Source: Epinephelus fuscoguttatus
Taxonomy: Eukaryota; Chordata; Actinopteri; Perciformes; Serranidae
Direction: 5' to 3'
Length of the DNA stretch: 64,000 nucleotides
Assembly: GCF_011397635.1 (NCBI RefSeq)
Contig: NC_064755.1
Location: 40,654,059-40,718,058 of the forward strand
Every line of letters starts with the position of its first letter. Position 1 is the first letter of the stretch. A model generated the notes under the pieces. That model did not search any database. It was not told the origin of the DNA and saw only the letters and a program-made list of their open reading frames with translations. The position numbers and the translations under genes were made by a program. Positions 19,779 to 42,324 of the stretch are shown piece by piece.

Positions 19779-20930
19779 ATGGCTGCCCGGTCAAAACAAG
19801 AAGGAGAAGCTCCTCTTCACATCAATTTAGGACCCGCACTGAAGCTTCTGATCTTCTGCCTGGTGTTTCTGATGTGTTTAATACTCATGCTGGTTGTAGA
19901 CTACAAGATAGTTAGTCGTCTGAAAGAACAAGAGGTGGAAATTCAGCAGATGATCCAGACGAGACAACTGAAGATTGAGGAGATCAAACACTCAGTGGAG
20001 CTCAGTGAGGAAGGTGCAGACAGAGAGATAGCAGATGGTGTTCAGGTCTTCACTGCTCTGAAGGAGTCTGTTGAGAGAAGCCAGGCCGAGCTCATCAACA
20101 CGATCAAAGAGAAGCAGAGAAAGACAGAGGAACAGGCTGAAGGCTTCATCGAAGAGCTGGAACAGGAAGTCTTTGAGCTGCGGAAGAGAAGCGCTAAGGT
20201 GCAGCAGCAGCTCTTAAAGTCTGAGAACCACTTTCTCCTCCAAAACCCTCTGTCCCTGGGCACTGCTCTACCAGTGAAAGACTGGACAGAAGTCAATGTC
20301 TGTCCACTGTCACACGAGGGGACTGTGAGGAGAGCTCTGAATCAGTTGCTTGTTGGATCCGAGCTGAAGAGGGTCCAGCAGTATGCCGTGAATGTGACAC
20401 TTGACCCTGACACAGCACATCCCAACCTCATCCTGTCTGATGATAAAAAACAAGTACATGATGGTGGCGTACAGGTGACTCTCCCAGACAACCCAGAGAG
20501 ATTTGATTCTTGTGTTAATGTCCTAGCAAAGCAGAGTTTCACTTCAGGGAGATTTTACTTCGAGGTTCAGGTTGAAGGGAAGGCTGAGTGGACTTTAGGA
20601 GTGGCCAGAGGGTCAATCAAGAGGAAAGGATATATCACAGTGAGCCCTCAGAAAGGTTACTGGACGATATCTTTGAGGAATGAAAATGAGTACTGTGCTT
20701 GCGCTGGCCCTGATGTCAGCCTCTCTCTGAAATCTCGGCCTAAGAAGGTGGGAGTATTTGTGGATTATGAGGAGGGTCTGGTCTCCTTTTATGATGTTGA
20801 TTCTGCAGCTCTTATCTACTCCTTTACTGGCTGCTGCTTCAGTGAGAAACTCTACCCATTCCTCCGCCCCAGTCTTAATTATGGTGGTAAAAACTCTGCC
20901 CCTCTGATCATCTCTGCTGTCAATCACTGA
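19779..20930 (+). CDS. TRIM gene C: RING-less, membrane anchor + coiled coil + PRY/SPRY
   Basis: The protein has 383 residues from the first ATG at 19779, equivalent to an internal Met in the paralogues (SEMAA). No RING or B-box precedes it: the intron polypyrimidine tract is fused to the region encoding the end of the RING, and a new acceptor (TTCAAG) at 19757-19758 may serve. Residues 23-40 (LLIFCLVFLMCLILMLVV) are strongly hydrophobic and flanked by Lys22 and Asp41-Tyr-Lys43, a plausible signal anchor. A coiled coil (about 48-150) and PRY/SPRY (about 200-380) follow. The C-terminal half is almost identical to gene F, and both lack the same ten residues before PRY. The order anchor, coiled coil, B30.2 resembles the inner part of butyrophilins. 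It cannot be an E3 ligase by RING. It could be a decoy or adaptor, or a decaying copy; the intact frame favours function. Confidence 0.8.
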   Translation: MAARSKQEGEAPLHINLGPALKLLIFCLVFLMCLILMLVVDYKIVSRLKEQEVEIQQMIQTRQLKIEEIKHSVELSEEGADREIADGVQVFTALKESVERSQAELINTIKEKQRKTEEQAEGFIEELEQEVFELRKRSAKVQQQLLKSENHFLLQNPLSLGTALPVKDWTEVNVCPLSHEGTVRRALNQLLVGSELKRVQQYAVNVTLDPDTAHPNLILSDDKKQVHDGGVQVTLPDNPERFDSCVNVLAKQSFTSGRFYFEVQVEGKAEWTLGVARGSIKRKGYITVSPQKGYWTISLRNENEYCACAGPDVSLSLKSRPKKVGVFVDYEEGLVSFYDVDSAALIYSFTGCCFSEKLYPFLRPSLNYGGKNSAPLIISAVNH

Positions 20931-20982
20931 ATAGAACAACCATTTTAACATCCATTTTAAACCTTAATAAAATGTAAATGGA

Positions 20983-21140
20983 ATGTTGAAATTAGCTACA
21001 GAGACCAAAACTGTTTTTTGTACCAGGCTGTAAACATGTTTATTTCTGCTGTAAAGTTGGGCATTTTAACATGGGGGTCTATGGGGATCGACTCACTTCT
21101 GGAGTCAGCCTCAAGTGGCCATTAGAGGAACTGCAGTTTT
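20983..21140. repeat. Interspersed repeat, related to 24-170
   Basis: This is the fuller copy of the repeat at the left edge of the window, with the extra segment GCTGTAAAGTTGGGCATTTT. It begins about 50 bp beyond the stop codon of TRIM gene C. It is non-coding. Confidence 0.6.
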
Positions 21141-21447
21141 TGCCACTTCTGCATCAGCTTCATTTTTCAGCTGTGCAGGTTACCGCTTCATAAATTTACA
21201 CCAGCCCTCTGGTCTAGTTCATAACAAACTGCAGCCTGACACATGCTCTTCATAAATAACTATCACCAGCACAGACAGGTCACTGAACAGGCCTACCAGG
21301 AGACACAAAAAGACCACAAAGAGATGCAAAGGAACTGCAAAAAGACACAAATAAAAAAGGGCAAGACAGCCCCAAAAGGTAAAACAAAATGTCCACCCAC
21401 AAAAATGACTACAAAGAGACGTAAAGAATCATAATGACTATAAAAGC

Positions 21448-22262
21448 CTCGTTTCCACTAAGCAGTACGGTTCAGTTCAGTTCAGTATGCTTTTTTTCTC
21501 TTTCCACAGTGAAAAGTTGTGGATGGTACCAATAGAACCGTTCTGTACCGTCCCCATGTTTGGTCCCCCCTCTGTTGGGGTACCTAGCACACAGATCTGG
21601 TACTAAAAGGTGGAGCTGTGAACACTGCAGTCTGATTGGTCAGTAGAGGACGGTCACTCTGCTCAGGGCTGAGTTGTGTCTGGTTTTGAGGCTCATGTAA
21701 CCACTGTTCATACTGTGGAGAGTTTTATTAGTAAACTGTAACTATAAAATGAAAGGATGTTTTGCTGCCTCTCACAGCAGCTGGAGTCTGAGAAAAAATA
21801 ACTTCATTCACTGGGCCGACTGCAGGCAACTTTTAAGGTGGAATGTTTACTTGTAATGTTGCTCAATGCATGAGTTGATGACGTGAATCCATCAGCACAC
21901 CTTAAATTTCACTGTGACAACTTTGACCATCACTTTAGTTTCTATATGACACACACTTTTAGTAATGAGTATTTATATAAATTATTTTTTGCCAGATTAT
22001 GTGAACTGCACGTACTGTATTCTAATCCTCACTCAGAGAAAAAAAAAAGCATGGCGGAGAGTCATTCCTGCGCACGAGGTGCAGACTGTGTCAGACTGGT
22101 AATGAGGAAATACAGTGAGTGCTGGACGGAGCAGTGAGCGACAACAACCCCACCCACAATTAAGAGCACTGTTTGCAGTGGAAATGCAAGGGTCTAGGTC
22201 TTTAGGGTTACTGTTGGTTCCAAAGGTACTATAGTGAAAGTGTTTGATGGAAATGGGGCTAA
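21448..22262. mobile_element. Non-autonomous element with inverted ends
   Basis: The left end GCCTCGTTTCCACTAAGCAG and the right end reversed, AGCCCCATTTCCATCAAACA, are imperfect inverted repeats. The interior has repeated GGTTCAGTTCAGTTCAG near the left end and GGTTCCAAAGGTAC near the right. No transposase was seen; it is probably a hAT-derived element. Confidence 0.5.
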
Positions 22263-22539
22263 AGAGACAAAAACAACAAAGAAAGAGGCTAAACAACCGT
22301 AAAGTCTGTGTGCCGTGCTCCTGTGTTGGAGACATGGTGGGGCCTTTTGCATATCTCTGCCCAGGGGCTCACTGCCTCATAATCCCATGATCGACAGTCT
22401 GATAATGAAACTAATGACAAGAATACAGGAATTCATAAACTTAAACTAAATTTCTACAAACTACATTTTCAAATATCTACACTTTGACATTTTTTTAATC
22501 ATGCATGCATGTATTTTGTTCTATGCAGCTGCTTCTGTT

Positions 22540-23510
22540 ATGTCAGGCACATGGATTAACTGCAGTCTGCACTGCATCTTGAATTTTATTTTTATTTGTT
22601 GTGTCTAGTTGTTATGTTTAGGACTACGGATAGAAATTAACGTGTTGCTTAATCTGCTGTAACTGTTTTTGATTTCTCTTAAATGATTGTCATTGCACGC
22701 AGTCCTCTTACAAACCAAATAAACCAAACTGAACTAAATTTATGTTTCACGCTGCTGCAACTCTTTTAAAATCATTTATGAACTATAGTTTTACAACTCT
22801 ATGATTTTATTAATCAGTTCATCCATGTTTTAAACTGTTTTAAATGTCCTTTTATATTGAGATGCCTGGTTTGTCTGTTTTATGTCCATTATGTCTGTTT
22901 TCATGTGAAGCACTCAGTGCTCATACTGCCCTTATTGTAAAACACTTTGTGCTGCATTTCTTGTATTAAAGGTGCTCTATGAATAAAGTTTATTATAATA
23001 ATAACTATTATTATCATTATCATTATTATTCTATGATCATCACCATCATCGTCCTTATTATTATTTTATTTATTTATTTATTGTCATTTCAGATATCCAC
23101 AATGTGATTTTAGATAGTCGGAGTGAACATTTTATAATCCAATTGTTACTAGTCATGATTTTAATTGTAGATATGTGCATTTGCATTTTCCTGTCATAAT
23201 GATAATTGTGGATATCCAAAATGACATTTATACTACTCAAAATTAAAAATAATATTTTGGATGTTCATAATCGCATTATGGATATCTGGATTTTCTTAAT
23301 ATCTAAAATTAAACCATGACTAGAACAACTGGTTTATAGATATCTAAAAGTGGAATTATTCCCAGTAAGAGTGCAATTGCAGATATCTACGATGTTTATT
23401 CTGACTATCTAAGATGACGATGTGGGTATCTGAAATGACAGTTGTAGAGAATGTCATTGTGTTTATCTAACATATTCCTTTTATTTAGTTATCTATTTAT
23501 TTATTTATTG

Positions 23511-23549
<39 letters not shown>

Positions 23550-23551
23550 AA
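22540..23551 (+). repeat. LINE 3' tail and simple repeats
   Basis: AAACACTTTGTGCTGCATTT followed by AAGGTGCTCTATGAATAAAG and a run of TTATTA triplets is the usual 3' end of fish L2/Rex-like LINEs (ends about 23090). 23100-23470 holds a loose series of ATATC-containing phrases, and 23513-23551 is (GAAA)n. No gene was seen. Confidence 0.55.
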
Positions 23552-23962
23552 AAGGCCTACCTAATGAGATGCTCTGTTGTATTGTAGCTGAGCTGGACAC
23601 AAGGGGCAGCTGTCAACACATAATAAGAGTCTCCTCTCTGTTAACTGATAAACAGGTGCGCAGGTGATAATAATTACCTGCTACCGGTGACGCACATGCG
23701 CACAAGAGTACCATCAGTGACAGGAGCAGCAGGTGTGCAACCCAACTCAATCTCTTGCTCCTCACAGGATTGTAAACCACATCTTGACAGCATCATGTGA
23801 CGTTTTGTTGAGTTTAGAAAGGTGGGCTGTTTAAAACAGCGATCAGTGAAACTTTATTCACTATAACACACGTTGATTGGAGTGTGAAACGTTTTCTTCT
23901 TGTGCACTGGGAGGAGGAGGAGGAGCTACAGTGAAGAGCAGAGCTCCAACGTCACATGAAAC

Positions 23963-23976
23963 GAAACTGAAACTTT
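23963..23976 (+). promoter_or_regulatory. ISRE of TRIM gene D
   Basis: GAAACTGAAACTTT fits the interferon-stimulated response element GAAANNGAAACT exactly. It is preceded by an overlapping GAAACGAAACT, giving three GAAAC repeats in a row. It lies about 100 bp before the leader donor at 24079. This is the strongest sequence evidence for interferon control in the cluster. Confidence 0.75.
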
Positions 23977-23989
23977 GAGTGAAAGCAGC

Positions 23990-24078
23990 GCTGCAGTCGA
24001 CAAATGTCTGTGTTTCTCTCTACAGAAACATTCAGTTGAATCCAGCTGTTTTTTCTCCACAACAACAAACACACACAG
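23990..24078 (+). other. Untranslated leader exon of TRIM gene D (5' end uncertain)
   Basis: GCGCTGCAGTCGACAAATGT to AACACACACAG is followed by the donor GTGAGT at 24079. It shares a CAG-GCTGCAGTC phrase and ACAGAAACATTCA-type sequence with the gene A leader. It would splice across about 3.7 kb to the acceptor before 27789. Confidence 0.6.
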
Positions 24079-24829
24079 GTGAGTACACTGAGACAAAATG
24101 CACTACCTAAACATTTGGTCATGATTTAGTTCATGTCAGAACCAATAACAAAGAAAAAAGTCACGATAAGTTATGTCTGCAAAAACCTCCCGAGACCAGG
24201 CTGCTGTCACACCTGTAGTTAAGTTCATCTGGTCCGCAGCAGAGGGGTCACATGATCCACTGTTGTATTTTAGTTTTGGTTCTGTTCCTGTTCACACTTA
24301 AAACGAACCAAGATGAGTAAACATGAAATAATAACGACTGACAGGTAACATGCTGATTGGACAGTTCTGGTGTTTGTCATCCTGCATCATCAGGAAAAAT
24401 CAAATTCTGGTGGCTCAGTGAAGTTTATGCAGCAGCACTTTGATGCCTCTAAAGTTTTTATATTCATGTTGTCTGGTTTCACTAAGAGCTCATAGAGTAA
24501 TAACTGACTGTGAGCATTATTAGGAGGCTGTTATTAGACCGCGAAACAATCACATGTTCTGAATAATATCTAACAGAGACAGGATTAGAAGAAGGTGTCT
24601 TGTACAGTAATGATTCAGGGCTTGATACTGTGGGATCACTGTCACACTTTTTAATGCATTCAATGAACAGACAGTACACAGAGGTTAATGTAATGGTGGC
24701 AGTTTCAGCAGCTTTTTAAACAGGGAAAGTACCCTCACTGATGTGCATATGTGTTACCGTGGTTACATGTATGCTTGTATGATGTGTCTGTGTCACTCTG
24801 CAGTTACACCTCCAGAACACTAGTTGGCT

Positions 24830-25070
24830 TTATAGCGACAATCTCAAATAAAAGTACACAAATCAGCTTCACTATAACTCGCAGCATTCACAGACGAACA
24901 CTTGTCTTTATCTGGACACATTTTCCCCACAAATACAACATGCTAATGTTTTTAGCACAAACCTATGGCATTTTACATTGTATAAATTAGCCTAGCGGTT
25001 AGCAGAGCTTTCCTCAGCAACAGCAACATTTTACAAAGGTAACATTACCAAATTTGGCTTCAGGTGTGCA
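24830..25070. repeat. Interspersed repeat shared with 59400-59770
   Basis: Phrases CACTTGTCTTTATCTGGACA, AATACAACATGCTAA, CATTTTACATTGTATAAATT and AGCCTAGCG-TTAGC are shared with the region at 59400-59770. It is non-coding and lacks visible ends. Confidence 0.65.
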
Positions 25071-25606
25071 CTGCTCTGGTGTCGCTCTGATGTTTGAGCA
25101 CACCTGCCACGCATTTACATTAAAAATAATGAATTTAAGGGGGGCAAAAAAATGCAGCGTGTGTACAGCCCCTAATAGATTAAAATGGGTCTCCTTGCCT
25201 CACTGATGGCCATGTTTGTCAAAATGGGGTGTGGCTCTACTTAGGGCTGTGACAATAACCGCATCACCGCAATACCGCGGTCACGTGATGCCTACAGCGG
25301 TGACAAGGTCATCATCGCACAAAAAAAAATAAAAAGCTGATTCATCATGGCGGCGGATCTGGCTCCCAAGCCAAATGTTAAATAATATGATTAGGAGGTA
25401 TGCCCTTTTGCTATCATTTTCATATTGAGACAACATGATGGATATCATTTTTGTGTCTGTACATCCAGGGGCTGGGTCTCAGCGGTTAGCATTGGGGTCA
25501 GTACGTCCTGCGCTGTGATCCGCGGAGGGATACACCGGTGAGCAGGCACAGACGTAGCTTGTAAACAAAACTCAGCTGTTTATTTAACCTAGCGATATCT
25601 CTGGAC

Positions 25607-26664
25607 TAGGGGTGTAACGATACACAAAAATCTCGGCTCGGTACGTACCTCGGTACACAAGTCACGGTTCGTTTTTTTTTTTGGTACAGTAATGAAAAAA
25701 ATAGACAACTATTAAATATCTTTTACTTATTGGTAACTTTATTAAAACATACCACCGCAGCAGTTAACTCTTTTTACACAATTTTTGAATGAAACAAATA
25801 TATATAAAATCCTGCTTTTTCACATTGTTTGAATGAAAATAGAAATATAAAAGTGAAAAATAAAATCCTGCTGTTTTTTAACACATTTTTTGAATGAAAA
25901 ACATAAATATACATTTCTGCTTTAACAGTTTTACTCAATTAAAATAAAAAGTATAGTGCAGCTGGTCAGCTTTAAAGCCTGCTCAGATTCAGTTTTACTA
26001 GGAACTTACTTAGCTTTCCCACTTTGTTAAAGTGCAGTAAATAAACACGCTTATATCTAAAGTGCACCTTAAACAATTTTACTCAACTCCAATGGCGTTG
26101 ATTATTTCTTTAGCGTGATGGTCAGGGAAACGCTCTTTCTTTTTAAACGACGACGATATCATAGTTTGCACCAGATTGCTTTTTCTAGTCGTGCCGGTTA
26201 ATGTTCAAACTCGGGTGGTGTCGCTTTAGATGCGTTAGCATGTTAGACGTGTTTCCAAGTACATACCCGACTGCTGTTCTGCAGTGTCGGCACACTGCTT
26301 TTGTCTTGTCCACTTGTTTATTTCCATCTTCGTATTTTACCCTGAAACCAAAGTGTTCCCAAAAGGAGGACTTAAGGTTTGCGGGTGGGTCTTCAAGTTC
26401 GTCAGGCTCACTTGCCATATTGTCAAAATGTGAGAATGTGCTGCACAAAGTGAAAGCGGAGATTTACGGGACTGGTCCGTCACTCAATTATGTCTGTCGG
26501 GGAACGAGATATTTTAAGTGGTTCAGCTCGCAAAAATGGAATTAAAATAAAACAAAATAAAATAAAATAATATCCTGCGCCCAATAATTCGGTACAGGGT
26601 CGTGCCGAACCGAAAGTCGCGTACCGAACGGTTTGACACAAATACATGTACCGTTACGGCCCTA
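25607..26664. mobile_element. hAT-type element nested in the outer hAT
   Basis: It begins TAGGGGTGTAACGATACACA and ends GTACCGTTACGGCCCTA. Flanks are CTCTGGAC (25599-25606) and CTCCGGAC (26665-26672), an 8-bp duplication with one difference. Inside, on the minus strand, is the N-terminal BED-finger exon of a transposase. The rest of the transposase is gone, so it is non-autonomous. Confidence 0.87.
26185..26418 (-). pseudogene. BED zinc finger remnant of a hAT transposase
   Basis: From MASEPDELED (start at 26418) the frame reads a ZBED-like domain: SSFWEHFGF, then AVCRHCRTAV (C-x2-C) and MLTHLKRHHP (H-x4-H type). This is the DNA-binding N-terminus of ZBED-type hAT transposases. It ends at a stop after HPSLNINRHD with no catalytic domain following, so only the N-terminal fragment is left in the nested element. 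Confidence 0.75.
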
Positions 26665-26679
26665 CTCCGGACTGTAGTA

Positions 26680-27110: not shown

Positions 27111-27788
27111 TCGTCCGTGTCGTGTCTTTGTTTGCTTTTACCGAGTGACCTAGTGTACCTGTCCCAGAGCCAGCTGCAGCTGTTGCTCACCGGTGTATCC
27201 CTCCGCGCAGGATGTAAACACACTATAGTTCATGTATCAGACCTCTTCTAAAATGACTAAAACGGACTCTCGTTTTTTGAATTAATGATACGTCACTCTG
27301 TCACCGCTGTAAGAAAAAATACATACCGCCACAGCCCTAGCTCTACTGCAGTCCACTTTAGATGTTGTGGAACACTGTGATTGGCTGTAAGACATCCATT
27401 CAAATACATTTGTGCATTAGGATGGAGTAAGATGACAGGGGTCATAGATGTAGACATCCTAGAAAAGTCTTGTCCATCTGTGGCCATGGGGGCTGTGGCC
27501 ATGTGTGCCTCCTCTTCCTCCTCTTTGTTCAAGTTGACTCTCTGACACTAAAGGTATTTGGACAGAGAAGGGGATTATTGTTTTGCTCTACTCTCTCAGA
27601 TGTTTCAATAAGACAAATTACAAAGCAAAAATACTGGCTAAATGTGTCACGTTAAATGGTAAGAAATGTCTTAACTTTAATTTTAAATTTGAATTATAAA
27701 TGTTTCGCCTTTTTTTTAAACCAAGTAATCAAATGATATGTGATTACAGTTTTGTTTTTTTCACACTTTTTGTCCTCAGAGTGTAGAC

Positions 27789-29249
27789 ATGGCTGCTGCC
27801 AGCTGTCTGCTGACTGAAGATCAGTTCTTGTGCTCCATCTGTCTGGATGTGTTCATTGATCCAGTCACCATACCATGTGGACACAACTTCTGTAAAACCT
27901 GCATCACTGAACACTGGGATATTAAGGTCCCAAGTCAGTGTCCGAATTGTAATAAGGCTTTCAACACAAGACCTGAGCTGCATGTCAACACTTTGTTTTC
28001 CGAGATGGCTGCTCGGTACAGACAGTCAGCTCGACAGAAACCAAAAGAAGTTCCGTGTGAAGTCTACTCAGGAACCAAACTGAAGGCCTTGGTGTTCTTC
28101 CTGGTGTGTCTGATGTTTGTCTTGGTGCTCTGGATGGTTTTAGACCACAAGAAATATGTTGTTGTTCTTCTGAAAGAAGAATATGAAGGAAAGAAGGCAG
28201 AGCTGGAGAAGACAAAGGCAAAAACTCAGCAGATGATCCAGACGAGACAACTGAAGATTGAGGAGATCAAACGCTCAGTGGAGCTCAGTAAAGAAGGTGC
28301 AGACAGAGAGACAGCAGATGGTGTTCAGGTCTTCACCGCTCTGAAGGAGTCTGTTGAGAGAAGCCTGAACAAACTCATCAACACGATCAAAGAGAAGCAG
28401 AGAAAGACAGAGAAACAGGCTGAAGGCTTCATCAAAGAGCTGGAACAGGAAATCTCTGAGCTGAAGAAGAGAAGCGCTGTGTTGGAGCAGCTCTCACACT
28501 CTGAAGACCACCTCCACCTCATCCAAAGCTCCCTTCCCCTTAACATTACTCCACCCACCACGGACTGGACAAAAGTCAGTGACCATCCACCTTCATTTGA
28601 GGGGACAGTGAGGAGAGCTATGAATCAGCTGGAGGAGATACTTAATGAGGAGATGACTAACTTGCTTTTTGCCGAGCTGAAAAGGGTCCAGCAGTATGCA
28701 GTGGATGTGACACTAGATCCTGATACAGCACAAAGCTGGCTCATTGTTTCTGTTGATGGAAAACAAGTACATGATGATGATGAATGGACAAATGTCCCAA
28801 ACAATCCAGAGAGATTTGATAATTGTTTTTGTGTCTTAGCAGAGCAGAGTTTCTCTTCAGGGAGATTTTACTTTGAGGTTCAGGTTGAAGGAAAGACTGA
28901 CTGGGATTTAGGAGTGGCCAAAGAGTCGATCAACAGGAAGGGGAAAATCATACAGATTCCCCAGAAAGGTTACTGGACGATATCTTTAAGGAATGAAAAT
29001 GAGTATAAAGCTCGTGCTGGCCCTGATGTCCATCTCTCTCTGAAGTCTCGACCTGAGAAGGTGGGGGTGTTTGTGGACTATGAGGAGGGTGTGGTTTCCT
29101 TTTATGACGTAGATGCTACAGCTCTTATCTACTCCTTTACTGGCTGCTGCTTCACTGAGAAACTTTATCCATTCTTCAGTCCTGGTACTTCCAATGATGG
29201 TAAGAACTCTGCCCCTGTGATCATCTCTCCTGTCAAAGACACTGAGTAG
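27789..29249 (+). CDS. TRIM gene D: RING + predicted membrane segment + coiled coil + PRY/SPRY
   Basis: The 486-residue single-exon protein starts at the ATG at 27789, ten bases after the conserved acceptor. The RING is intact (C15, C18, C30, H32, C35, C38, C51, C54). Both B-boxes are gone: after CEVYSGTKLKA comes LVFFLVCLMFVLVLWMVL (about 101-118) and then DHKK. Codon-by-codon comparison with gene E shows that 49 codons (33138-33284 in E) are missing and the remaining B-box cysteines have become Phe, Leu, Val or Trp. Coiled coil spans about 130-240 and PRY/SPRY the last 190 residues. The hydrophobic stretch is long enough for one membrane pass. If it spans, RING and SPRY would face opposite sides, so a peripheral or re-entrant arrangement must also be considered. 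The upstream ISRE suggests interferon induction. Confidence 0.87.
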   Translation: MAAASCLLTEDQFLCSICLDVFIDPVTIPCGHNFCKTCITEHWDIKVPSQCPNCNKAFNTRPELHVNTLFSEMAARYRQSARQKPKEVPCEVYSGTKLKALVFFLVCLMFVLVLWMVLDHKKYVVVLLKEEYEGKKAELEKTKAKTQQMIQTRQLKIEEIKRSVELSKEGADRETADGVQVFTALKESVERSLNKLINTIKEKQRKTEKQAEGFIKELEQEISELKKRSAVLEQLSHSEDHLHLIQSSLPLNITPPTTDWTKVSDHPPSFEGTVRRAMNQLEEILNEEMTNLLFAELKRVQQYAVDVTLDPDTAQSWLIVSVDGKQVHDDDEWTNVPNNPERFDNCFCVLAEQSFSSGRFYFEVQVEGKTDWDLGVAKESINRKGKIIQIPQKGYWTISLRNENEYKARAGPDVHLSLKSRPEKVGVFVDYEEGVVSFYDVDATALIYSFTGCCFTEKLYPFFSPGTSNDGKNSAPVIISPVKDTE

Positions 29250-29802: not shown

Positions 29803-29939
29803 GTTAGGGAAAAAGTATTTCCTGTTGTAGGGATGAATAAGGTTGTGTGTATTAAGGGTTATCATGTCCACCTCATCAGAGACTGGGGAGGGATTAAGAG
29901 GAATATTGGATTTCTCTGGAACGCTAACTTTTTAGGTTC

Positions 29940-32285: not shown

Positions 32286-32399
32286 GTTTAGAGCATGCTA
32301 CTGATGCCAATATAAGAAAAATAAACATCAAACTTAAAAAAGGAGGCTTGTGCTAAAACTATGTCACTAATGAAGTCAAACCTGAAAGGTAACAAAAAT

Positions 32400-32560
32400 T
32401 CACCTGCAAAGCCGAAGGAGGAGGAGCAACACTGGAAGTATTCAGATAACACATTCCTAAAATGACACGAAACATTCATCTGAGTGACAGCAGACCTGCA
32501 GTCCAGACAAGACACATTTAATCCAGGGTCTCTCAACAGCGCAGTCTCTGCCAAACACCG
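32400..32560 (+). other. Promoter and leader exon of TRIM gene E
   Basis: GGAGGAGGAGCAACACTGGA at about 32416 and GACAGCAGACCTGCAGTCCA at about 32487 match the shared leader module of the cluster. ACACGAAACATTC is only a weak interferon-type match. The exon ends with GCCAAACACCG before the donor GTGAGT at 32561. The intron is about 200 bp and resembles that of gene C. Confidence 0.55.
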
Positions 32561-32774
32561 GTGAGTACAGCTGTTAATATTTACTGCGTTGTAACAAACA
32601 ACATTAACACAAAGACAGGACGTTCTATTGTTTTTGTGCTTTCAAAGAACTTTTGCTTTAGTACCATATGATGAAATAATTTAACATTACTTCCTGATAT
32701 TTCAGTTAACCGAGCAACTTTGTTTTTGCTGTCTTGCTTTATCACACTTTTACTTTTGTCCTCAGAGTGTAGAC

Positions 32775-34424
32775 ATGGCTGCTGCCAGCTGTCTGCTGAC
32801 TGAAGATCAGTTCCTGTGCTCCATCTGTCTGGAAGTGTTCACTGATCCAGTCACCATACCATGTGGACACAACTTCTGTAAAACCTGCATCACTAAACAC
32901 TGGGATATTAACATCCCCTATCAGTGTCCCAACTGTAAAAAGCTTTTCTACCGAAAACCTGAGCTGCAGGTCAACACTTTCATCTCTGAGATGGCTGCTC
33001 AGTTCAGACAGTCAGCTCAACAGAAAGCCAGCAGCAGCAGCAGCTCAGAGCAACAAGTTTTCAAACCAGGAGAAGTTCCCTGTGACGTCTGCACTGGAAC
33101 CAAACTGAAGGCACTGAAGTCCTGCCTGGTGTGTCTGGTCTCCTACTGTGAGACTCACCTGGAGCCTCATCTGACAATGTCAGGCCTGAAAAGACATCAG
33201 CTGATCAACCCTGTGGAGAACCTGGAAGACAGGATGTGTAGAGAGCATGATAAACAGCTGGAGCTGTTCTGTAAGGATGACCAGATGTGTGTCTGCATGC
33301 TCTGCACTGTTTTGGATCACAAGACACATGATGTTGTTCCTCTGAAAGAAGAATGTGAAGGAAAGAAACTCAAGCTGGGGAAGACAGACGCTGAAATTCA
33401 GCAGATGATCCAGAAGACACAACTGAAGATTGAGGAGATCAAATGCTCAGTGAAGCTCAGTCAGAGAGGTGCAGACAGAGAGATAGCAGATGGTGTTCAG
33501 GTCTTCACCGCTCTGAAGGAGTCTGTTGAGAGAATCCAGGCCGAGCTCATCGACACGATCAAAGAGAAGCAGAGAAAGACAGAGGAACAGGCTGAAGGCT
33601 TTATTAAAGAGCTGGAACAGGAAATCTCTGAGCTGAAGAAGAGGAGCACTGAGGTGGAGCAGCTGTTACAGTCTGAAGACCACCTCCACTTCCTCCAAAG
33701 CTTCACATCCCTGAATGCTGCTCCACCTGCTAAGGATCTGACAGAATTTAACATCTGTCCACCTTCATATGAGGGGACTGTGAGGAGAGCTGTGAATCAG
33801 CTGGAGGAGACACTCAGTAAAGAGAAGAATAAGCTGCTGGCTAAGGCCAAGCTGAAGAGGGTCCAGCAGTTTGCAGTGGATGTGATACTTGATCCTGACA
33901 CAGCACATCCCAACCTCATCCTGTCTTATGATGGAAAACAAGTTAAACATGGTGATGAAATGAAGAATCTCCCAAACAATCCAGAGAGATTTGATAATTG
34001 TGTCTGTGTCTTAGCAAAGCAGAGTTTCTCGTCAGGAAGATTTTACTTCGAGGTTCAGGTTAAAGGCAAGACCTACTGGGTATTAGGAGTGGCCAGAGAG
34101 TCGATCAACAGGAAAGGAGATATCCCACTGACTCCTCAGGATGGTTACTGGACGATATGTTTGTGGGATGGAAAGGAGTACTATGCTCTCGCTGGCCCTG
34201 ATGTCCATCTCTCTCTGAAGTCTCGGCCTGAGAAGGTGGGGGTGTTTGTGGACTATGAGGAGGGTGTGGTTTCCTTTTATGACGTTGATTCTGCAGCTCT
34301 TATCTACTCCTTTACTGGCTGCTCCTTCACTGAGAAACTCTTCCCATTCTTCACTCCATATCCTAATGATGATGGTAAAAACTCTGCCCCCCTGATCATC
34401 TCTCCTCTCAGTCACACCGGGTGA
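32775..34424 (+). CDS. TRIM gene E: full RING/B-box/coiled-coil/PRY-SPRY protein
   Basis: The 549-residue single-exon protein starts at the ATG at 32775 after TTTTGTCCTCAG. It has the RING (C15 to C54), poly-Ser linker, B-box 1 (CDVCTGTKLKALKSCLVC) and B-box 2 (MCREHDKQLELFCKDDQMCV), coiled coil and PRY/SPRY. It is the best reference for reconstructing the deletions in B, D and F, since its nucleotide sequence aligns across both deletion breakpoints. The C-terminus differs from gene A in the SPRY loops, the part that usually contacts targets, as expected for paralogues diverging in binding. It is predicted to be a cytoplasmic E3 ubiquitin ligase of the bloodthirsty/TRIM39-like group; target unknown. 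Confidence 0.9.
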   Translation: MAAASCLLTEDQFLCSICLEVFTDPVTIPCGHNFCKTCITKHWDINIPYQCPNCKKLFYRKPELQVNTFISEMAAQFRQSAQQKASSSSSSEQQVFKPGEVPCDVCTGTKLKALKSCLVCLVSYCETHLEPHLTMSGLKRHQLINPVENLEDRMCREHDKQLELFCKDDQMCVCMLCTVLDHKTHDVVPLKEECEGKKLKLGKTDAEIQQMIQKTQLKIEEIKCSVKLSQRGADREIADGVQVFTALKESVERIQAELIDTIKEKQRKTEEQAEGFIKELEQEISELKKRSTEVEQLLQSEDHLHFLQSFTSLNAAPPAKDLTEFNICPPSYEGTVRRAVNQLEETLSKEKNKLLAKAKLKRVQQFAVDVILDPDTAHPNLILSYDGKQVKHGDEMKNLPNNPERFDNCVCVLAKQSFSSGRFYFEVQVKGKTYWVLGVARESINRKGDIPLTPQDGYWTICLWDGKEYYALAGPDVHLSLKSRPEKVGVFVDYEEGVVSFYDVDSAALIYSFTGCSFTEKLFPFFTPYPNDDGKNSAPLIISPLSHTG

Positions 34425-35580
34425 CTTTCTAGATATTCTTTCCATAAGGCAATAATTTTATATTTCTTGAGGGTGCGTGTGTGTGTGTTGCAGTGTGTTA
34501 ACAGCTAATCTCGCAAACTACTGGACCAATCAGCCTCAAATTTTGTGTGCACATTTGTGACTATGCTGAAGAGTCTCCCTTCGTTGTGGGGATTCACGGT
34601 AGTTGGAAAACGGGTTTTATTGACTATTTTACACTGCCATTAACTCCTCACTGCTATTTACTGACCGGAAGGAGCCGTATGTTTTTGGGAGATTGGCTTA
34701 GCTAAAAACAACAAGCCTTACTGTCTGACGCAGGCCACATTTCAGCTATCATTGTGGCTAAAAATCTGATATCCATAGAAAATGTTGGTAACATTACAAA
34801 TCGCGTCATCTGCAGATTAATTCCATACCAGATACCTCATGATACATTAGTGTTAGACACAACAGGAGATAAATTAGTCCCTGTTTTGTTTGCTTCTCCA
34901 CCATCTTGACTCTAAAGCTGAAAACACACCTGCGCCACCATGACGTGGTGCATTATGTGACGCCTCTAGCACACACGTGTCGTGCTGCAGCTCATCAACA
35001 GACAACCACACAAAGTTATTACTGCTTTAACTGAAACATCTGTACTTCCTCCACCTGTGCATTATCTTAAAATCACGCGTGGACGGCTTGTAATTAAACT
35101 TAATTTCTCACCTGACGAGCTGATCTCCAGAGCTATGACTTGCCAGGCTGTGTCTTTTTGGCAATTGTCTATATAATGACAGGATTGTGGGTTGTTTACT
35201 TTGGGGTATTAAGTATAAGTCTCTCATCATCCATTCTTCATCACACATGAGACCGAGCAACAGCAACAGAGTTCTCTTTATACATCAATGGTGAGGAGAG
35301 GAGTTGAGCTGCCATAGGAGCAGAGAAAAAGAGCTGCTATGAGAGTTGGTATGAGCAAGCAAAAAGTGAGTGGGGGAAAAATGCATTTAATTCTGGGGGT
35401 GACAAGGCTGGAAATAGGACAGCAGTGTGAAGTTCCATGGGGGGGCACGTCCAGGAGCATCAATGTGTGTCTAGCCACCACCGGTGTGTTTTGGCCTTAA
35501 GTGAGCCTGGAGGGACAATTCCACTGGGCACAGCTCCAACTGCAACCTGATTTTGTTAGGTCCACTGCACAGTGCCATAC
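34425..35580. other. Gene-free stretch after TRIM gene E
   Basis: It starts with a (GT)n run at 34473-34490 and contains phrases typical of dispersed repeats, but no end pairs, domain or exon was recognised. Confidence 0.4.
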
Positions 35581-35584
35581 CTAG

Positions 35585-35665
35585 GGTTGTACCGGTATGA
35601 GATTTTCATGCTACGATAACCGTCTCAGAAAATATCACAGAATTTAAATTATTACCAGCCAGAAT
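35585..35665. mobile_element. hAT-like terminal fragment
   Basis: CTAGGGTTGTACCGGTATGA, ATTTTCATGCTACGATAACC and GTCTCAGAAAATATCACAGA resemble the terminal region of a common vertebrate hAT family. Only one end is present. Confidence 0.45.
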
Positions 35666-35695
35666 GACCCTTAAAGGAATCTTAGCCATAGAGAT

Positions 35696-35995
35696 AGGGT
35701 AAGGAGCTCGGAGTAGAGCTGCTGCTCCTTCACGTTGAAAGGGGTCAATTGAGGTGGTTTGGGCATCTGATCAGGATCCTCCTGGGCACGTCCCACTGGG
35801 TCAGACCCAGAACACACTGGAGGGATTACATATTTCATCTGGCCTGGGAACGCCTTGAGGTTCCCCAAAGAGGAGCTGGAAAGAGTTGCTGGGGAGAGGG
35901 ACGTCTGGGGTGCTTTGCTTGGCCTGCTGCCCCTGCAACCCAGTCCTGGATAAGCGGATGAAAATAGATGGATGGATGGATGGATGGATAGATTT
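35696..35995 (+). mobile_element. LINE 3' end with (GATG)n tail
   Basis: The plus strand encodes RWFGHLIRILLGTSHWVRPR and THWRDYIFHLAWERL, the conserved C-terminus of a fish non-LTR retrotransposon polyprotein, ending in GGATAAGCGGATGAAAATAG and (GATG)n. The frame is shifted in places and 5'-truncated, as usual for LINE copies. Confidence 0.75.
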
Positions 35996-37389
35996 GTGTT
36001 TCTCCCATAATTAAGTAGGAAGTTAAATGGTCTCTTTTTATTGTCTGTATTGATTGTGTTTATTGTTATTTTCTACTTTGTTGTTCTGTAACTTACAGAC
36101 ATAGTTAATACTGTTCTAAGTCCACTTATGAATCCATGGATCAAAGAATTGTGGCAGTGTTTTAATGAATAAAAATACATTCAATCTTCATTTTCATATT
36201 GTATTTATATTTCACATACAGCACCTGTTAACAGGAAATATCTGCTCTGCATAACATGTTGTGGCTCCATCAAAAATAGACAAGGGGTGTATTTTAAGTC
36301 CCTGAAACGTGCTGCAGTGCATCTGCTGAAATTAGAGTTGCTGCCATCAGCTTGGGCGGCTCTCTGACGATGATCTGCATTCTACTGAGTACACTTCTAT
36401 AGCTCTGAAAATATTTTCCTTGATGTGTCACATTTTCTATTTACTGCTACAACACACATATTTTACCACACTGATTGATGTTATCTAATTTACTCTAATA
36501 ACTGCATTACCTGGATTCAAGACTGGTCAGTCATCAGAAAACTACAGACCTTCAGTTGGCGGCTGTAGCGGAATGAATTTAATCACAGCAACCCACCAGT
36601 GCCAGATGTCACAGCGGGCTGGTGGCCAGTGGCTGCACCTAATCTAACCTGTGTCACAGCAGCAACAGAAAGCTTGCTGATCTGGCGGCGAGTTTGGGTT
36701 GTCAGGTCCTGCGGAGCCGGGATTTACACTGGCCGGATTCAGGTTGCTGCGGCCCCTGACTTAAGTGCCTTACTCTCCTTCTGGCGAGGCGGTCTGTAGT
36801 GGGAGGGTGTCAGGAAACACTGTGATTTGAGGCCTTCGCTAATGTTAGCTAAATAAATGTGAACTTGAAGCTGCAGCTGTGAGCTTTTGGCTCCAGTTAG
36901 CAGAAGGCTAAACTTTTAGCAACATCTTCTCTTCATCTCTGAAATGCTTCACAGATATTAACACATTTTATTTTGTTTATTGTCAGAGTCTGTTCTTGTT
37001 AAGTCCGTCTTCCTTTTCTGAGTTGCATTGCAGTGTAGGCAGTTGTTGCCAATGCTGGAATAGCAGCTTTCTTTGCAGAATTCTCCACCACTGAATCAGG
37101 TTCGCCAAAGGGACGTGCACATGCATTTCCATTTGTAGAACAGCCAGTACCACTAACACCATCTCTCTGAAAAGACCTGTGATTGGCCAGAGTCTCCCGT
37201 CAAAGGCTAGATTTTCTAAAGACTAAAAACAGAGCCAAGAGGAGGAGCAGAAGTCTAATTTTCTCTCAGTATACTGAAAGTTAATCACTGGATTTTTGCG
37301 GTAAGGGGAATTAAAACTGCCTACCCCAGCTTTAATGTCTGAGTTGTGTCTGAACAGCTGATAGCAACACTTAACCACTGCTCCTACTG
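35996..37389. other. Gene-free stretch before the gene F duplication block
   Basis: No gene, domain or end-defined element was recognised. The region at 36560-36830 is somewhat GC-richer (CTGGCGGCGAGTTTGGG) but shows no splice-supported exon. Confidence 0.35.
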
Positions 37390-37720
37390 TGTAGAGAATA
37401 AGTGAAATCTGAGGACGCCCTCTAGTGGAGTATATTACAAACTGCCGCCTGTGGCCACATGAGGACATGCTGTTAAGAAATACACAGTCTGATACTGAAG
37501 CAGATTATTCCAATACAGGGGAACTACGAAATCTAAATCTGATTGGCACAAGTAGTGTGTATGATGTGACTGACTACTTTTGTTTGTTTTTTACAGTTTT
37601 AAACTCCATCTAAAATCAGACACTTTACAGCTGAAGAAGACTTCTATTGTAAAGTATTGAACTTTAACTACTTTTAAAAGAGGAGCATCACAGAGAGGCA
37701 CATTAATCTACTGCTGCGGT
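37390..37720. repeat. Segmental duplicate of 14320-14640
   Basis: CGCCCTCTAGTGGAGTATAT, GGGGAACTACGAAATCTAAA and GTAAAGTATTGAACTTTAAC match the block downstream of gene A. Here it lies about 300 bp upstream of gene F's promoter, so it marks the 5' edge of a duplicated TRIM unit. The copy at 14.3 kb lost the corresponding promoter. Confidence 0.65.
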
Positions 37721-38017
37721 CAAATCAGAAGGAATGACAGACTTCAAGATCTCTGTTTCTAGAGGCTTTTTACTTTCCTATCACTACATCAAAGAGGGAA
37801 ACATTGCTCTTTGTTGTTGTTGTTGTTGTTGTTTGCATTTTGTAATCTTTAAAATGTCTGACTTGTAAGGGAAGACTTTATTTTGTTGTTGGACAATAAT
37901 CTGTGTGCTTTTGATATTCTTCATAATTCTTCCCAGTCCCAGAGACAATAAAACCTCCCCCACAGAACTCCACTGAGAGGTGGAGCAACAGTGAAAGAGG
38001 AGAGCTGCACCGTCACG

Positions 38018-38040
38018 TTTCCTGAAATGAAACTTAAAGT
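38018..38040 (+). promoter_or_regulatory. ISRE-like element of TRIM gene F
   Basis: The first 20 bases, TTTCCTGAAATGAAACTTAA, match 8643-8662 upstream of gene A exactly. GAAATGAAACT is one base short of the standard interferon element. It lies 90-110 bp before the leader donor. Confidence 0.5.
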
Positions 38041-38044
38041 CTGA

Positions 38045-38127
38045 AGGACAGCAGAGCAGCACTCAAGACAAATCTCTCTGGTTTTCTCTCAGCTTAATCC
38101 AGCAGCTTTTCCCAACAACAAATACTG
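38045..38127 (+). other. Untranslated leader exon of TRIM gene F (5' end uncertain)
   Basis: GGACAGCAGAGCAGCACTCA to CAACAACAAATACTG is followed by the donor GTGAGT at 38128. It is paired with the acceptor at about 40892-40893. The sequence around the donor (TACTGGTGAGTTCACTG) matches gene A (CACTGGTGAGTTCACTG). Confidence 0.6.
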
Positions 38128-39134
38128 GTGAGTTCACTGTCCTACAGAGACAAGAGATGCACTGAAGGGATACTTGGACAACATTTAGTTAAAACCAGAA
38201 TCTGGTTTATTTTTTTATTTTTTTTACATCTGTTTTACCATATGAAGAATATCTGACATAGAAATGTGTCACTTTGATAAAAACAAATTGTAAATTCTGC
38301 CATGAACACCAAAACAGAGGTAAAAACCAAACCACAGTGACTGAACTCTGGTTAGTTCAAGTTAGACAGAAAGCAGTCACAGCTAGCTTCAGCTAAAGCT
38401 AATCTACTAACCTTTGTCCTCCTGTTTCTTCCTTGTAAATTAAAATTCAGATTTGATGCACCCCCCAGCCCCACCTCACAAAGATTATTGTATTGAGTAA
38501 CTGTTTAAGGTTTTTACCATTACAAAATATAAAGTGTCACAGCTGCTGTCAAACTGTTGAGGCACACCTGGCTCTCCCTCACCTGACACTGAAGCTGTCG
38601 GGGCATGCAGTGATCTCTCTGTCATCTAATGCTAACACTACTGCGGTATCTGCCTCAGCTGTAATGTAGTCCTGTTTATCACTGTCTGTACAATCAGGTG
38701 TTTCATTGTCATGGATCTAAATGGTCTAACTCATCCTGACTGGCTCTGACCCATAGACTGTAGTGTATGATATTTATACTCTCACTTTATATCAGCCTAT
38801 GCTCCGACAAAGAGCACTTTAGAACAGCAATGATACATTAATAGGTCTATATTGGCTGTGAAAATGCATCATATCATGATTTGCATCCATTGATTGTAAT
38901 AATTGAAAATAATACAAACTTTAAAAAAATTCTTATCACAATAGAGTGCCACAGGGATGACGTTTTCCTGCAGGCCCACACAGAAGTTAGTATCCCTGGA
39001 TCCCTTGTCTAAAAGCCTATGAGATTTTTCAGATTTTGGATTATTGCAGCAATTAAGGTCAGTGGCAAATGAAACGTTTTGTTTGGCGAGATAATCACAA
39101 ATAAACACCACTTTCATGACTATTAAAGCCTTAA

Positions 39135-40427
39135 AACGATAGTGCACCCAAAAATGAAAATTCAGCCATTATCTACTCACCCATATGCCGAGGGAGGCTC
39201 AGGTGAAGTTTTAGAGTCCTCACATCCCTTGCAGAGATCCAAGGGGAGAGGAGGTAGCAGCACAACTCCATCTAATGGAGGCTGACGGCGCCCCAGATCC
39301 AAACGTCCAAGAACACATAATTGAAACCACAAAATATCTCCATACTGCTCGTCCGTAGTGATCCAAGTGTCCTGAAGCCCCGACATAAAAAGTTGTTTGG
39401 AAGAATGTCATTTGAACTCTGTTTTTAGCCTCATTGTAGCCTGTAGCTCTAACTGCCTCTCTGGGCACCGCAGTCATGTGTGTGCGCTTGCGCGGGAGAC
39501 CAGTGAAAGCACGTGAACACACATGAAGGCGGTGCCCATGTCTCACGGTCTTGCACAAGTGCACACACGTGGGCGCGGTGCCCAGACAGGCAGTTACGCC
39601 AGATTTCCACTAGATGCGTGTCTGTTGCGGAACGGCAGCGCTGGTTATCCGCTGCCTGCTCCGCTGTCCGTCAATACCCACCGGCTGCGTTTGCTGTGCA
39701 GAGCGGTGCAGCTCCGCCGGAAGACATCTTGGTGCACTGCCATGATTAACATCTCCTCGTCCATGGTGTTCACGGGGTGAAATGACGTCTGAAAACCTCT
39801 GACCTGTTGACTTCGGGCCTGCTTCTGCCCATTATGTAGTTTTCAAGGTGTAGTGCAGGGAAATATGATCCACCGTGAACACTGTGTATTTTATTTTGAA
39901 AATTAACCGGATGTTTTATTGTATTTCTATGCACGACTTCCTGCCCCGCACAATCTGCTCTGTGCTGAATTGCTGCGTTGTGCTCCGGCGTCCGGCAAAA
40001 ATAGAAGTCCTGCGTATCTGTTGCGGAGGGCTTCGGAGTGCCGGAGCTGAGACGGAGCCGGAACGCAGCACAGCCGCAGCCGGTGGAAACACACACATTG
40101 ACTAGAATGGAATCCTATCGGCTCCGCTGCCGTGCCGGAGCGGAGACGCAACCAACACGCATCTGGTGGAAATTGGCCGTTAGAGCTACAGGCTACAATG
40201 AGGCTAAAAACAGAGTTCAAATGACATTTTTCCAAACAACTTTTTATGTCGGGGCTTCAGGACACTTCAGGCGCTGTAAGCCTCCATTAGGTGGAGTTGT
40301 GTTGCTACCTCCTCTCCCCTGGGATCTCTGCAAGGGATGTGAGGACTCTAAAACTTCACCTGAGCCTCCCTCGGCATATGGGTGAGTAGATAATGGCTGA
40401 ATTTTCATTTTTGGGTGCACTATCCCT
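39135..40427. mobile_element. TTAA-flanked element with long inverted repeats
   Basis: TTAA lies at 39131-39134 and 40428-40431. The ends AACGATAGTGCACCCAAAAA and its reverse at 40427 (AGGGATAGTGCACCCAAAAA) continue as nearly perfect inverted repeats for well over 100 bp, and further with interruptions towards 39470. TTAA targets with long inverted repeats fit Kolobok- or piggyBac-type non-autonomous elements. It sits in gene F's leader intron and has another element inside it. Confidence 0.82.
39598..40177. mobile_element. Nested GC-rich TIR element
   Basis: The left end reads CAGATTTCCACTAGATGCGT and the right end reversed reads CAATTTCCACCAGATGCGTG; both continue into GC-rich CGGAACGGCAGCG-type sequence. 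It interrupts the right arm of the TTAA element (GGCAGTTA then GTTAGAGCTA). No transposase was seen. Exact ends and target duplication are uncertain. Confidence 0.6.
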
Positions 40428-40902
40428 TTAATGCAGTCGCCAGAGGTGAAAAGCCAATGTTAGGCTATAAACAACCTACACTATGATCGCATGAACTGAT
40501 GTCATCACCATAACGAGACCATAAAGCCATGTTCGGTGTGATGACATTCTGTAGTCTCATTTAGCCACTTGTTAGCAATGGTCTTTTTTAAGATGCATTA
40601 AAGCTTCAAAGTTAAAATGTGGGATATTTACTGATGGTTTTTATGTTGTAGAACAAAATGTGAAAGTGTCTTAAGCTTGTGTTTGTCACAGACCTTATTT
40701 TCCTGGTGGACTCTATTTAGGTCTGACTGAGCATGTAGTCCAAAGTGTCCAACTGTTTTTTATGTTATCGAGCAAAACACAAAGATTTCACGACAGTTTC
40801 TTGTACTGCCCATAAAAATGTCTAGCCTTTTCAAAGCAAGTAATCAAATGATATGTGATTACAGTTTTGTTTTCTCACACTTTTTGTCCTCAGAGTGTCG
40901 AC

Positions 40903-42324
40903 ATGGCTGCTGCCAGCTGTCTGCTGACTGAACATCAGTTCCTGTGCTCCATCTGTCTGGATGTGTTCACTGACCCAGTCACCATACCATGTGGACACAA
41001 CTTCTGCAAATCCTGCATCACTGAACACTGGGATATTAACGTCCCAAGTCAGTGTCCTAACTGTAAAAGGGTTTTTAACACCAGACCTCAGCTGCACATC
41101 AACACGTTCATCTCTGAGATGGCCGCTCAGTTCAGACAGTCAGCTCAACAGAAACCAGGAGAAGTTCCCCGTGAAGTCTACTCAGGAACCAAACTGAAGG
41201 CCATGGTGCTCTGCCTGTTCTATGTGGTGTGTTTTATGAGTGTCTGCATGCTCAGGATGGTTTTAGATAAGGAGAGACATGGTGTTGTTCCTCTGAAAGA
41301 ATATGTGCATAAAAAGGTTGTGCTGGGGAAGACAGAGGTGGAAATTCAGCAGATGATCCAGAAGAGACGACTCAAGATTAAGGAGATCAAACGCTCAGTG
41401 GAGCTCAGCTGGAAGGACGCTGGCAGTGAGATAGCAGATGGTGTTCAGGTCTTCACTGCTCTGAAGGAGTCTGTTGAGAAAAGCCAGGCTGAGCTCATTG
41501 ACACGATCATAGAGAAGCATACAAAGACAGAGGAACAGGCTAAAGGCTTCATCAAAGAGTTGAAACAGGAAATATCTGCACTGAAGAAGAGAAGTGCTGA
41601 GGTGAAGCAGCTCTCACACTCTTATGACCACCTTCACTTCCTCCAAAGCTTCTTGTCCCTGAACGCTCACAAGGACTGGACAGAAATCAATGTCTGTCCA
41701 CCTTCATATAAGGGAACTTTGAGGAGAGCTGTGAATCAGTTGCTTGCTGGAGCTGAGCTGAAGAGGGTCCAGCAGTATGCAGTTGATGTGACACTTGATC
41801 CTGATACAGCAAATCCCTTTCTTGTCCTGTCTAATGATAAAAAACAAGTATATGATGGTGATGTACAGGTGACTCTCCCAGACAACCCAGAGAGATTTGA
41901 TTCTTGTGTTAATGTCCTAGCAAAGCAGAGTTTCACTTCAGGGAGATTTTATTTTGAGGTTCAGGTTGAAGGGAAAGCTGAGTGGACTTTAGGAGTGGCC
42001 AGAGAGTCGATCAAGAGGAAGGGATACATCACAGTGAGCCCTCAGAAAGGTTACTGGACGATATCTTTGAGGAATGAAAATGAGTACTGTGCTTGCGCTG
42101 GCCCTGATGTCAGCCTCTCTCTGAAGTCTCAGCCTAAGAAAGTGGGAGTGTTTGTGGATTATGAGGAGGGTCTGGTCTCCTTTTATGATGTTGATTCTGC
42201 AGCTCTTATCTACTCCTTTACTGGCTGCTCCTTCAGTGAGAAACTCTACCCATTCCTCCGCCCCAGTCTTAATTATGGTGGTAAAAACTCTGCCCCTCTG
42301 ATCATCTCTGCTGTCAATCACTGA
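40903..42324 (+). CDS. TRIM gene F: RING + predicted membrane segment + coiled coil + PRY/SPRY
   Basis: The 473-residue single-exon protein starts at the ATG at 40903 after the conserved acceptor. The RING is intact (C15 to C54). After REVYSGTKLKA comes MVLCLFYVVCFMSVCMLRMV (101-120) and then LDKERH. It is the product of the same B-box loss as in gene D, with three extra codons at the junction. Arg118 makes the segment less ideal than in C or D. The coiled coil is followed by NQLLAGAELKR, the ten-residue shortening shared with gene C, and a PRY/SPRY almost identical to gene C's (about six differences in the last 155 residues). It therefore seems to be the full-length sister of gene C. It is a predicted membrane-associated RING E3. 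Confidence 0.86.
   Translation: MAAASCLLTEHQFLCSICLDVFTDPVTIPCGHNFCKSCITEHWDINVPSQCPNCKRVFNTRPQLHINTFISEMAAQFRQSAQQKPGEVPREVYSGTKLKAMVLCLFYVVCFMSVCMLRMVLDKERHGVVPLKEYVHKKVVLGKTEVEIQQMIQKRRLKIKEIKRSVELSWKDAGSEIADGVQVFTALKESVEKSQAELIDTIIEKHTKTEEQAKGFIKELKQEISALKKRSAEVKQLSHSYDHLHFLQSFLSLNAHKDWTEINVCPPSYKGTLRRAVNQLLAGAELKRVQQYAVDVTLDPDTANPFLVLSNDKKQVYDGDVQVTLPDNPERFDSCVNVLAKQSFTSGRFYFEVQVEGKAEWTLGVARESIKRKGYITVSPQKGYWTISLRNENEYCACAGPDVSLSLKSQPKKVGVFVDYEEGLVSFYDVDSAALIYSFTGCSFSEKLYPFLRPSLNYGGKNSAPLIISAVNH

Follow-up and report, generated by a model that had tools for sequence, protein, structure and literature searches.

Predicted membrane segments formed from fused B-box remnants in TRIM paralogues of Epinephelus fuscoguttatus

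How could a soluble TRIM protein come to carry a membrane segment in the place of its B-boxes? This question is raised by a 64-kb stretch of the genome of Epinephelus fuscoguttatus (positions 40,654,059 to 40,718,058 of NC_064755.1; hereafter the window, to which all positions refer unless stated otherwise), which sits on contig 4 of the 26-contig assembly (1.05 Gb) and contains an array of six immune-type TRIM reading frames, all on the plus strand, named A to F. The original prediction, made from the letters of the window, held that genes C, D and F lack B-boxes and have a hydrophobic stretch in that place, while A and E are intact. Domain searches and hydropathy both bore this out, and the reading frames and their coordinates were confirmed. 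As far as their sequences allow, C, D and F are best read overall as TRIM-derived single-pass membrane proteins, a reading held with moderate confidence.

Gene D (27789..29249) encodes 486 amino acids in the order RING, hydrophobic segment, coiled coil and PRY-SPRY. Its RING (residues 15-54; 27831..27950) has a complete ligand pattern and is followed by the hydrophobic segment ALVFFLVCLMFVLVLWMVL (residues 100-118; 28086..28142), the TRIM coiled coil (Pfam TRIM_CC, residues 150-289; 28236..28655) and the PRY-SPRY (residues 307-471; 28707..29201; Pfam and Foldseek). Gene F (40903..42324; 473 amino acids) has the same order, with a RING of complete ligand pattern (residues 15-54; 40945..41064) and the hydrophobic segment AMVLCLFYVVCFMSVCMLRMVL (residues 100-121; 41200..41265). 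Gene C (19779..20930; 383 amino acids counted from the first Met) consists of the hydrophobic segment LLIFCLVFLMCLILMLVV (residues 23-40; 19845..19898), coiled coil and PRY-SPRY. Gene E (32775..34424), with intact RING, B-boxes, coiled coil and PRY-SPRY, was taken as reference, and gene A (11079..12740) is an intact paralogue by Pfam and hydropathy. With a Pfam cut-off of E up to 0.01, RING, B-box (zf-B_box), TRIM coiled coil, PRY and SPRY were all matched in A, B and E. In D and F, RING, coiled coil, PRY and SPRY were matched, the RING families with every RING ligand kept. No zf-B_box match was obtained in C, D or F at this cut-off, and no RING match in C; C had been grouped with D and F as a RING-membrane-coiled coil-SPRY protein, and this grouping has to be given up. 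The TRIM coiled coil PF25600 was matched at 8.5e-31 (C), 3e-37 (D) and 2.5e-34 (F), and PF13765 and PF00622 (PRY-SPRY) were present in all six genes. Thus, C, D and F resemble class IV TRIM (RBCC) proteins in their clear matches to coiled coil and PRY-SPRY, and D and F also in their RING, but they differ from this class in that all three are devoid of a B-box, C is devoid of a RING, and a hydrophobic segment has been added. By Phmmer and Foldseek, the SPRY falls beside pyrin, TRIM21 and butyrophilins, with TRIM21 matched by D in Foldseek.

Hydropathy was calculated as the best 19-residue Kyte-Doolittle mean, for which the usual mark of membrane segments is 1.6. C (3.11, at residues 23-41), D (3.13) and F (2.35) had their best values at the B-box position, compared to at most 1.33 for A, B and E and 2.67 for glycophorin A, a positive control. 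Among 87 other loci of the genome (91 records, from which C, D, F and a 101-base fragment had been removed; A, B and E included), none exceeded 1.6 in the longest Met-started frame, the maximum being 1.58. In 5000 residue shuffles for each gene, the observed hydropathy was matched once for C, once for D and 97 times for F. Approximate insertion energies, calculated with a self-made position weighting, were -4.22 (C), -4.17 (D) and -0.95 kcal/mol (F), with -1.15 kcal/mol for the glycophorin control. The hydrophobic moment of the segments was low (0.04-0.18), and the uncharged run comprised 19 residues in D and 18 in C. The AlphaFold2 model of D, calculated with 42 relatives, had a mean predicted local distance difference test score (pLDDT) of 78.6 with confident RING and SPRY, and its helix 99-117 was separate from the long helix of the coiled coil (128-236). 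A free-standing helix at this place is compatible with the model, though not proven by it. Judged by these properties, the segments of C, D and F probably insert into a membrane.

Codon alignment traced the origin of the segment. Relative to E, D lacks 49 codons (33138..33284, plus strand; E residues 122-170), i.e., the end of B-box 1 and the start of B-box 2, and CTG is joined to ATG, exactly as had been proposed. C has the same joint by alignment, while the joint of F has three extra codons (Phe-Tyr-Val) beside the junction relative to C and D. The view that the segment is the fused stump of two B-boxes was likewise confirmed by codon alignment and by joining the flanks of E; an inserted exon as its source is ruled out, the stump belonging to the ancestral exon. 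The leftover zinc ligands of D were said to have changed, which holds for six of them: Cys106, Cys117, Cys172, Cys174, Cys177 and His185 of E correspond to Tyr, Phe, Phe, Leu, Trp and Tyr, respectively. However, Cys90, Cys107 and His120 of D align with Cys103, Cys120 and His182 of E, and these three ligands were kept. The further claim that the stump had turned hydrophobic applies to a later rise in C and D, but the unaltered flanks of E, when joined, give ALKSCLVCLMCVCMLCTVL with a hydropathy of 2.33. This bare joint ranked 6th among 4455 simulated in-frame deletions of the E region, 82 of which exceeded 1.6. Its strong hydrophobicity from the start is explained by the abundance of Cys, Leu, Val and Met in the two B-box cores. 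Thus, the deletion alone already gives what is predicted to be a near-complete membrane segment, and this is the new point of the present analysis.

After the deletion, Lys was removed in C, D and F, and Phe, Leu, Ile and Val were added in C and D. When the joint was randomly mutated with the observed number of base changes (omitting the three extra codons of F and a codon missing in C), the mean hydropathy dropped to 1.05-1.32, and a charged residue was left or gained in about 92% of the runs. Of 20,000 such runs each, 2 reached the observed hydropathy for D, none for C and 213 for F. With BLOSUM62-weighted changes, P was 0.00045 (D), 5e-05 (C) and 0.057 (F), and with changes fixed at the observed positions, P was 0.010 (D), 0.00025 (C) and 0.18 (F). 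On the strength of these values, the case for selection on hydrophobicity appears good in both C and D, whereas that for F is weak.

With regard to kinship, the Ser-rich linker is about 12 codons shorter in D and F, and shorter still in C by alignment; none of the 44 other loci measurable by pattern was so shortened. D and F also share the replacements Lys to Val (GTG) and Thr to Met (ATG) in identical codons, and they were joined at 97/97 in the tree of the RING part. In the SPRY tree, C and F were joined at 100/100, and D was placed with A and B at 91/85. The bootstrap of the RING and coiled-coil trees had not settled. The linker and the RING tree point to one origin for D and F. Independent deletions in C, D and F are less likely since D and F have the joint, the shortened linker and both replacements in common, and C has the joint and the shortened linker, although the three extra codons of F leave some doubt. 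C, D and F were not found as a clean clade across the whole gene; by the trees, the array is a mosaic. Since the RING and SPRY trees conflict, the array has been recombining, and the RING-segment part of D and F is, as judged by these trees, now coupled to two different SPRY domains.

The genome carries dozens of paralogous TRIM frames (best 88 of 873 candidates scored). A 52-residue query spanning the joint was searched against the genome with all 106 of 106 candidates scored, and of the 88 matches listed only D (query 1-52) and F (2-50) were near end-to-end; C is too diverged to appear, so that other diverged members may be missed in the same way. The other TRIM matches were one-sided, mostly covering 2-25 or 18-52, the latter running about six residues past the joint, and a match on contig 21 (query 8-42, E 0.73), which contains a stop, looks like a chance match. 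Thus, among the matches listed (best 88 of 873 and 106 of 106 candidates; longest Met-started frames), no wider family of joint-bearing genes was found in this genome. A distant paralogue on contig 22 (L081, G000:C22:1407800-1410181, frame 681-2285) has its B-box 1 core converted to CLWLGLACLTVGLAINYQL, with a hydropathy of 1.55, slightly below the usual mark, and has kept B-box 2. It is possibly an independent start on the same path, parallel to C, D and F and not a member of their group. Part of B-box 2 is lost in L048, and the longest frames of L047, L062, L065 and L072 have neither RING and B-boxes nor a hydrophobic segment.

A single pass would place RING and SPRY on opposite sides of the membrane. 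Given insertion, a cytosolic RING with the SPRY outside or in the lumen is the somewhat more probable orientation for D and F. It is favored weakly because the N-terminal flank is slightly more positive and a folded RING precedes the segment; taken over 15 residues on either side, the net charge ahead of the segment minus that behind it is +2 in D, +1 in F and 0 in C, and a folded domain ahead of a segment should hinder export of the N-terminus. The following course of events is proposed. One in-frame deletion in an ancestor would have taken about 49 codons between the B-box 1 core (...KALKSCLVCL) and the B-box 2 core (MCVCMLCTVL...), and the joint would from the outset have been hydrophobic over some 19 residues, a single Lys among them. 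Subsequent changes, presumably under selection, would have dropped the Lys and raised the hydrophobicity in C and D. The deletion would have abolished zinc binding by the B-boxes and hence B-box-driven assembly, and lateral concentration in the membrane may now replace the B-boxes in bringing dimers together. With the RING in the cytosol and the coiled coil and SPRY lumenal or outside, D and F might be E3 ligases that sample the secretory pathway through their recognition domain, and C, being without a RING, might serve as a partner, decoy or regulator. In its full form, the proposal describes D and F as fish-made transmembrane ubiquitin ligases whose RING is cytosolic and whose B30.2 serves as a sensor in the lumen or outside the cell, functionally convergent on the PA-TM-RING ligases (protease-associated domain, transmembrane segment (TM), RING), with an anchor made in one step from two zinc-finger remnants and with recombination coupling RING and anchor to different SPRY domains; taken as a whole, it is speculative and has only a small chance of being right. 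The original prediction of membrane-tethered E3 ligases or restriction factors stands insofar as the segment is of membrane strength, but C cannot be a RING E3 and one pass parts the RING from the SPRY.

Several observations weigh against the readings given so far. The segment of F is the weakest of the three and has an Arg near its end, and its hydropathy was not significant under the two stricter null models given above, while D reached only P 0.010 with changes at the observed positions. The tests per lineage are not independent, as C, D and F share part of their ancestry. The helix 99-117 of D falls in blocks with a mean pLDDT of 33-45, and the overall predicted TM-score (pTM) of the model is 0.49. 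C, D and F were ungrouped in the coiled-coil and SPRY trees, where a single clade was also not rejected (approximately unbiased (AU) test, 0.277 and 0.117). The charge differences across the segment are small. Glycosylation sequons gave no signature of a lumenal SPRY in C (one), D (one) or F (none), their counts being like those of the 58 loci measured, F included (27 with none, 19 with one, 10 with two and 2 with three). The ratio of nonsynonymous to synonymous substitution rates (dN/dS), which had been suggested as a check on the segment, was raised there (D-F 3.08, C-F 2.06, C-D 1.65), but not significantly by Fisher test (P 0.067, 0.062 and 0.32, respectively); positive selection in the segment is hinted at by these ratios and was not adopted.

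Three other explanations have to be weighed. C, D and F might be duplicates heading to loss, with the segment a by-product of a tolerated deletion. B-box loss does recur, B having lost B-box 1 and L048 part of B-box 2, C has lost its RING, and several other paralogues are fragments. However, all three reading frames are open, and stop-free survival was rare in simulations of random change (3000 runs): with 8% of sites changed, 1.0% (D), 1.5% (F) and 2.8% (C) of the runs stayed free of stops, and with 5% changed, 6.2%, 7.1% and 11.2%, respectively. Moreover, the whole-frame dN/dS among C, D and F was 0.57-0.66 and that of the C-F SPRY pair 0.19, hydrophobicity went up in C and D where random change brings it down, and C keeps two upstream stretches in common with E, one of them with a donor-like site. 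Decay is an unlikely account of the three genes, which are probably functional by these measures. Alternatively, the stretch could be buried in a soluble protein, e.g., in a core or in an oligomer interface that took the place of the B-boxes, and would not insert. In TRIM72 and TRIM5alpha, assembly involves a surface at the B-box position (PMC10643145), and the AlphaFold2 model is unsure in this region. A run of 19 (D) or 18 (C) uncharged residues with a low hydrophobic moment would, however, be expected to be recognized as a signal anchor during synthesis, and the N-terminal part of the coiled coil appears to offer no obvious pocket. Burial is improbable.

The third explanation accepts the membrane and reverses the orientation. 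As a reverse signal anchor, the segment would leave coiled coil and B30.2 in the cytosol, as in butyrophilins; the RING of D and F would be lumenal and unable to ubiquitinate, and C would be a butyrophilin-like stub without immunoglobulin domains. The placement of the SPRY near pyrin, TRIM21 and butyrophilins fits this orientation, as do the flanks of C, where Lys and Arg together number one among the 15 residues preceding the segment and three among the 15 following it, and the loss of the RING in C, as expected if the RING is useless. By contrast, D and F retain every RING ligand, their net-charge differences point the other way, and the folded RING before the segment should impede export of the N-terminus. 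This reversed arrangement is possible, yet doubtful as a complete account.

The RING-membrane-coiled coil-SPRY order had been regarded as new. This is only partly so: zebrafish btr31, described in 2011, already has the order RING-TM-B30.2 (PMC3137616), but the coiled coil retained here and the origin of the segment differ. Like btr31, D and F are class IV TRIM duplicates from fish with the B-boxes gone and a membrane segment, predicted here by hydropathy only, between RING and B30.2. In the same source (PMC3137616), no fewer than two rearrangements are said to be needed for btr31, among them a swap of exons 3 and 4 for DNA carrying a TM exon; btr31 has expressed sequence tag (EST) support, and an intact neighbor, btr32, survives. 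Thus, btr31 lost the coiled coil that C, D and F keep, and its segment came from a replacing exon and not from fused B-box remnants inside one exon. No printed RING-membrane-coiled coil-B30.2 TRIM was found among the papers listed from the open-licence literature. The arrangement described here is a variant of the known RING-TM-B30.2 order with a different and simpler origin than that of btr31.

Other TRIM proteins with a predicted membrane segment are human TRIM13 and TRIM59 (PMC4021871, PMC10048487) and carp CcTrim29 and CcTrim101, for which a TM domain is reported (PMC10048487). In the excerpts of these sources, TRIM59 is described with a C-terminal segment and no SPRY is named for TRIM13 or TRIM59; in C, D and F, the segment precedes the coiled coil and a SPRY is present. 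If their RING is cytosolic, D and F share with the PA-TM-RING ligases (RNF128/GRAIL, RNF13; PMC4021871) a lumenal or extracellular recognition domain, a membrane segment and a cytosolic RING. However, the order is reversed and a SPRY stands instead of the protease-associated domain, for which D and F gave no Pfam match, so that the resemblance is one of layout only. RINGs are gathered in TRIM72 and TRIM5alpha by a higher-order assembly that the B-boxes drive; TRIM72, like the proteins proposed here, is an elongated TRIM acting at membranes, but it binds phosphatidylserine membranes peripherally via its PRY-SPRY and with a working B-box (PMC10643145). From the segment onwards, C, D and F have the order of the butyrophilins, most strikingly so in C, and the butyrophilin B30.2 closely matches D in structure. 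Butyrophilins consist of a membrane segment, coiled coil and cytosolic B30.2, and their immunoglobulin domains gave no Pfam match in C, D or F.

These genes make it possible to trace how a soluble protein appears to have gained a membrane segment in one step, through a single in-frame deletion, an outcome explained by the high content of Cys, Leu and Val in zinc-finger cores. With intact paralogues a few kb away, a codon-by-codon comparison of donor and product is possible. Together with btr31, this would be a second route to a RING-membrane-B30.2 protein, and it revives a question that the btr31 authors did not settle in 2011, namely the use of a TRIM with ligase and receptor on opposite sides of a membrane (PMC3137616).

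The reading frame of C opens at 19731, and its first Met corresponds by alignment to the internal Met of the ISEMAA motif in the other genes. Its upstream region shares two stretches with E, of 88 columns at 75% and 65 columns at 83% identity, the second of which contains AAACACCG/GTGAGTA, resembling the end of a non-coding first exon with its donor. In C, the candidate splice donor of such an exon is GCAAACACCG/GTGAGTA (19527..19543, plus strand), with 1 mismatch to E 32551-32567, and the putative acceptor AG lies at 19757-19758 (plus strand), at the end of an acceptor-like tract. The last 81-161 bases before the start codon are common to D, F and A.

In gene B (16008..17603, plus strand), which the original prediction did not list, a 22-codon in-frame gap of its own, separate from that of D, removed B-box 1 and left B-box 2 intact (Pfam, alignment). 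Upstream of D, a 24-base exact inverted repeat (25521-25544 and 27184-27207, about 1.6 kb apart) resembles the ends of a mobile element. Fragments of Tc-type transposases were found at 45376-45858 (plus strand) and 3939-4352 (minus strand) by Pfam HTH_Tnp_Tc3_2, the second below the Pfam cut-off. Two overlapping long frames occupy 54856-57251; the pieces of them searched with Pfam were without a match, apart from a single doubtful one within a repeat. The second of these frames contains a 39/78/105-base tandem repeat at 56145-56810, which encodes units of the type SPQTPALIVSEQL.

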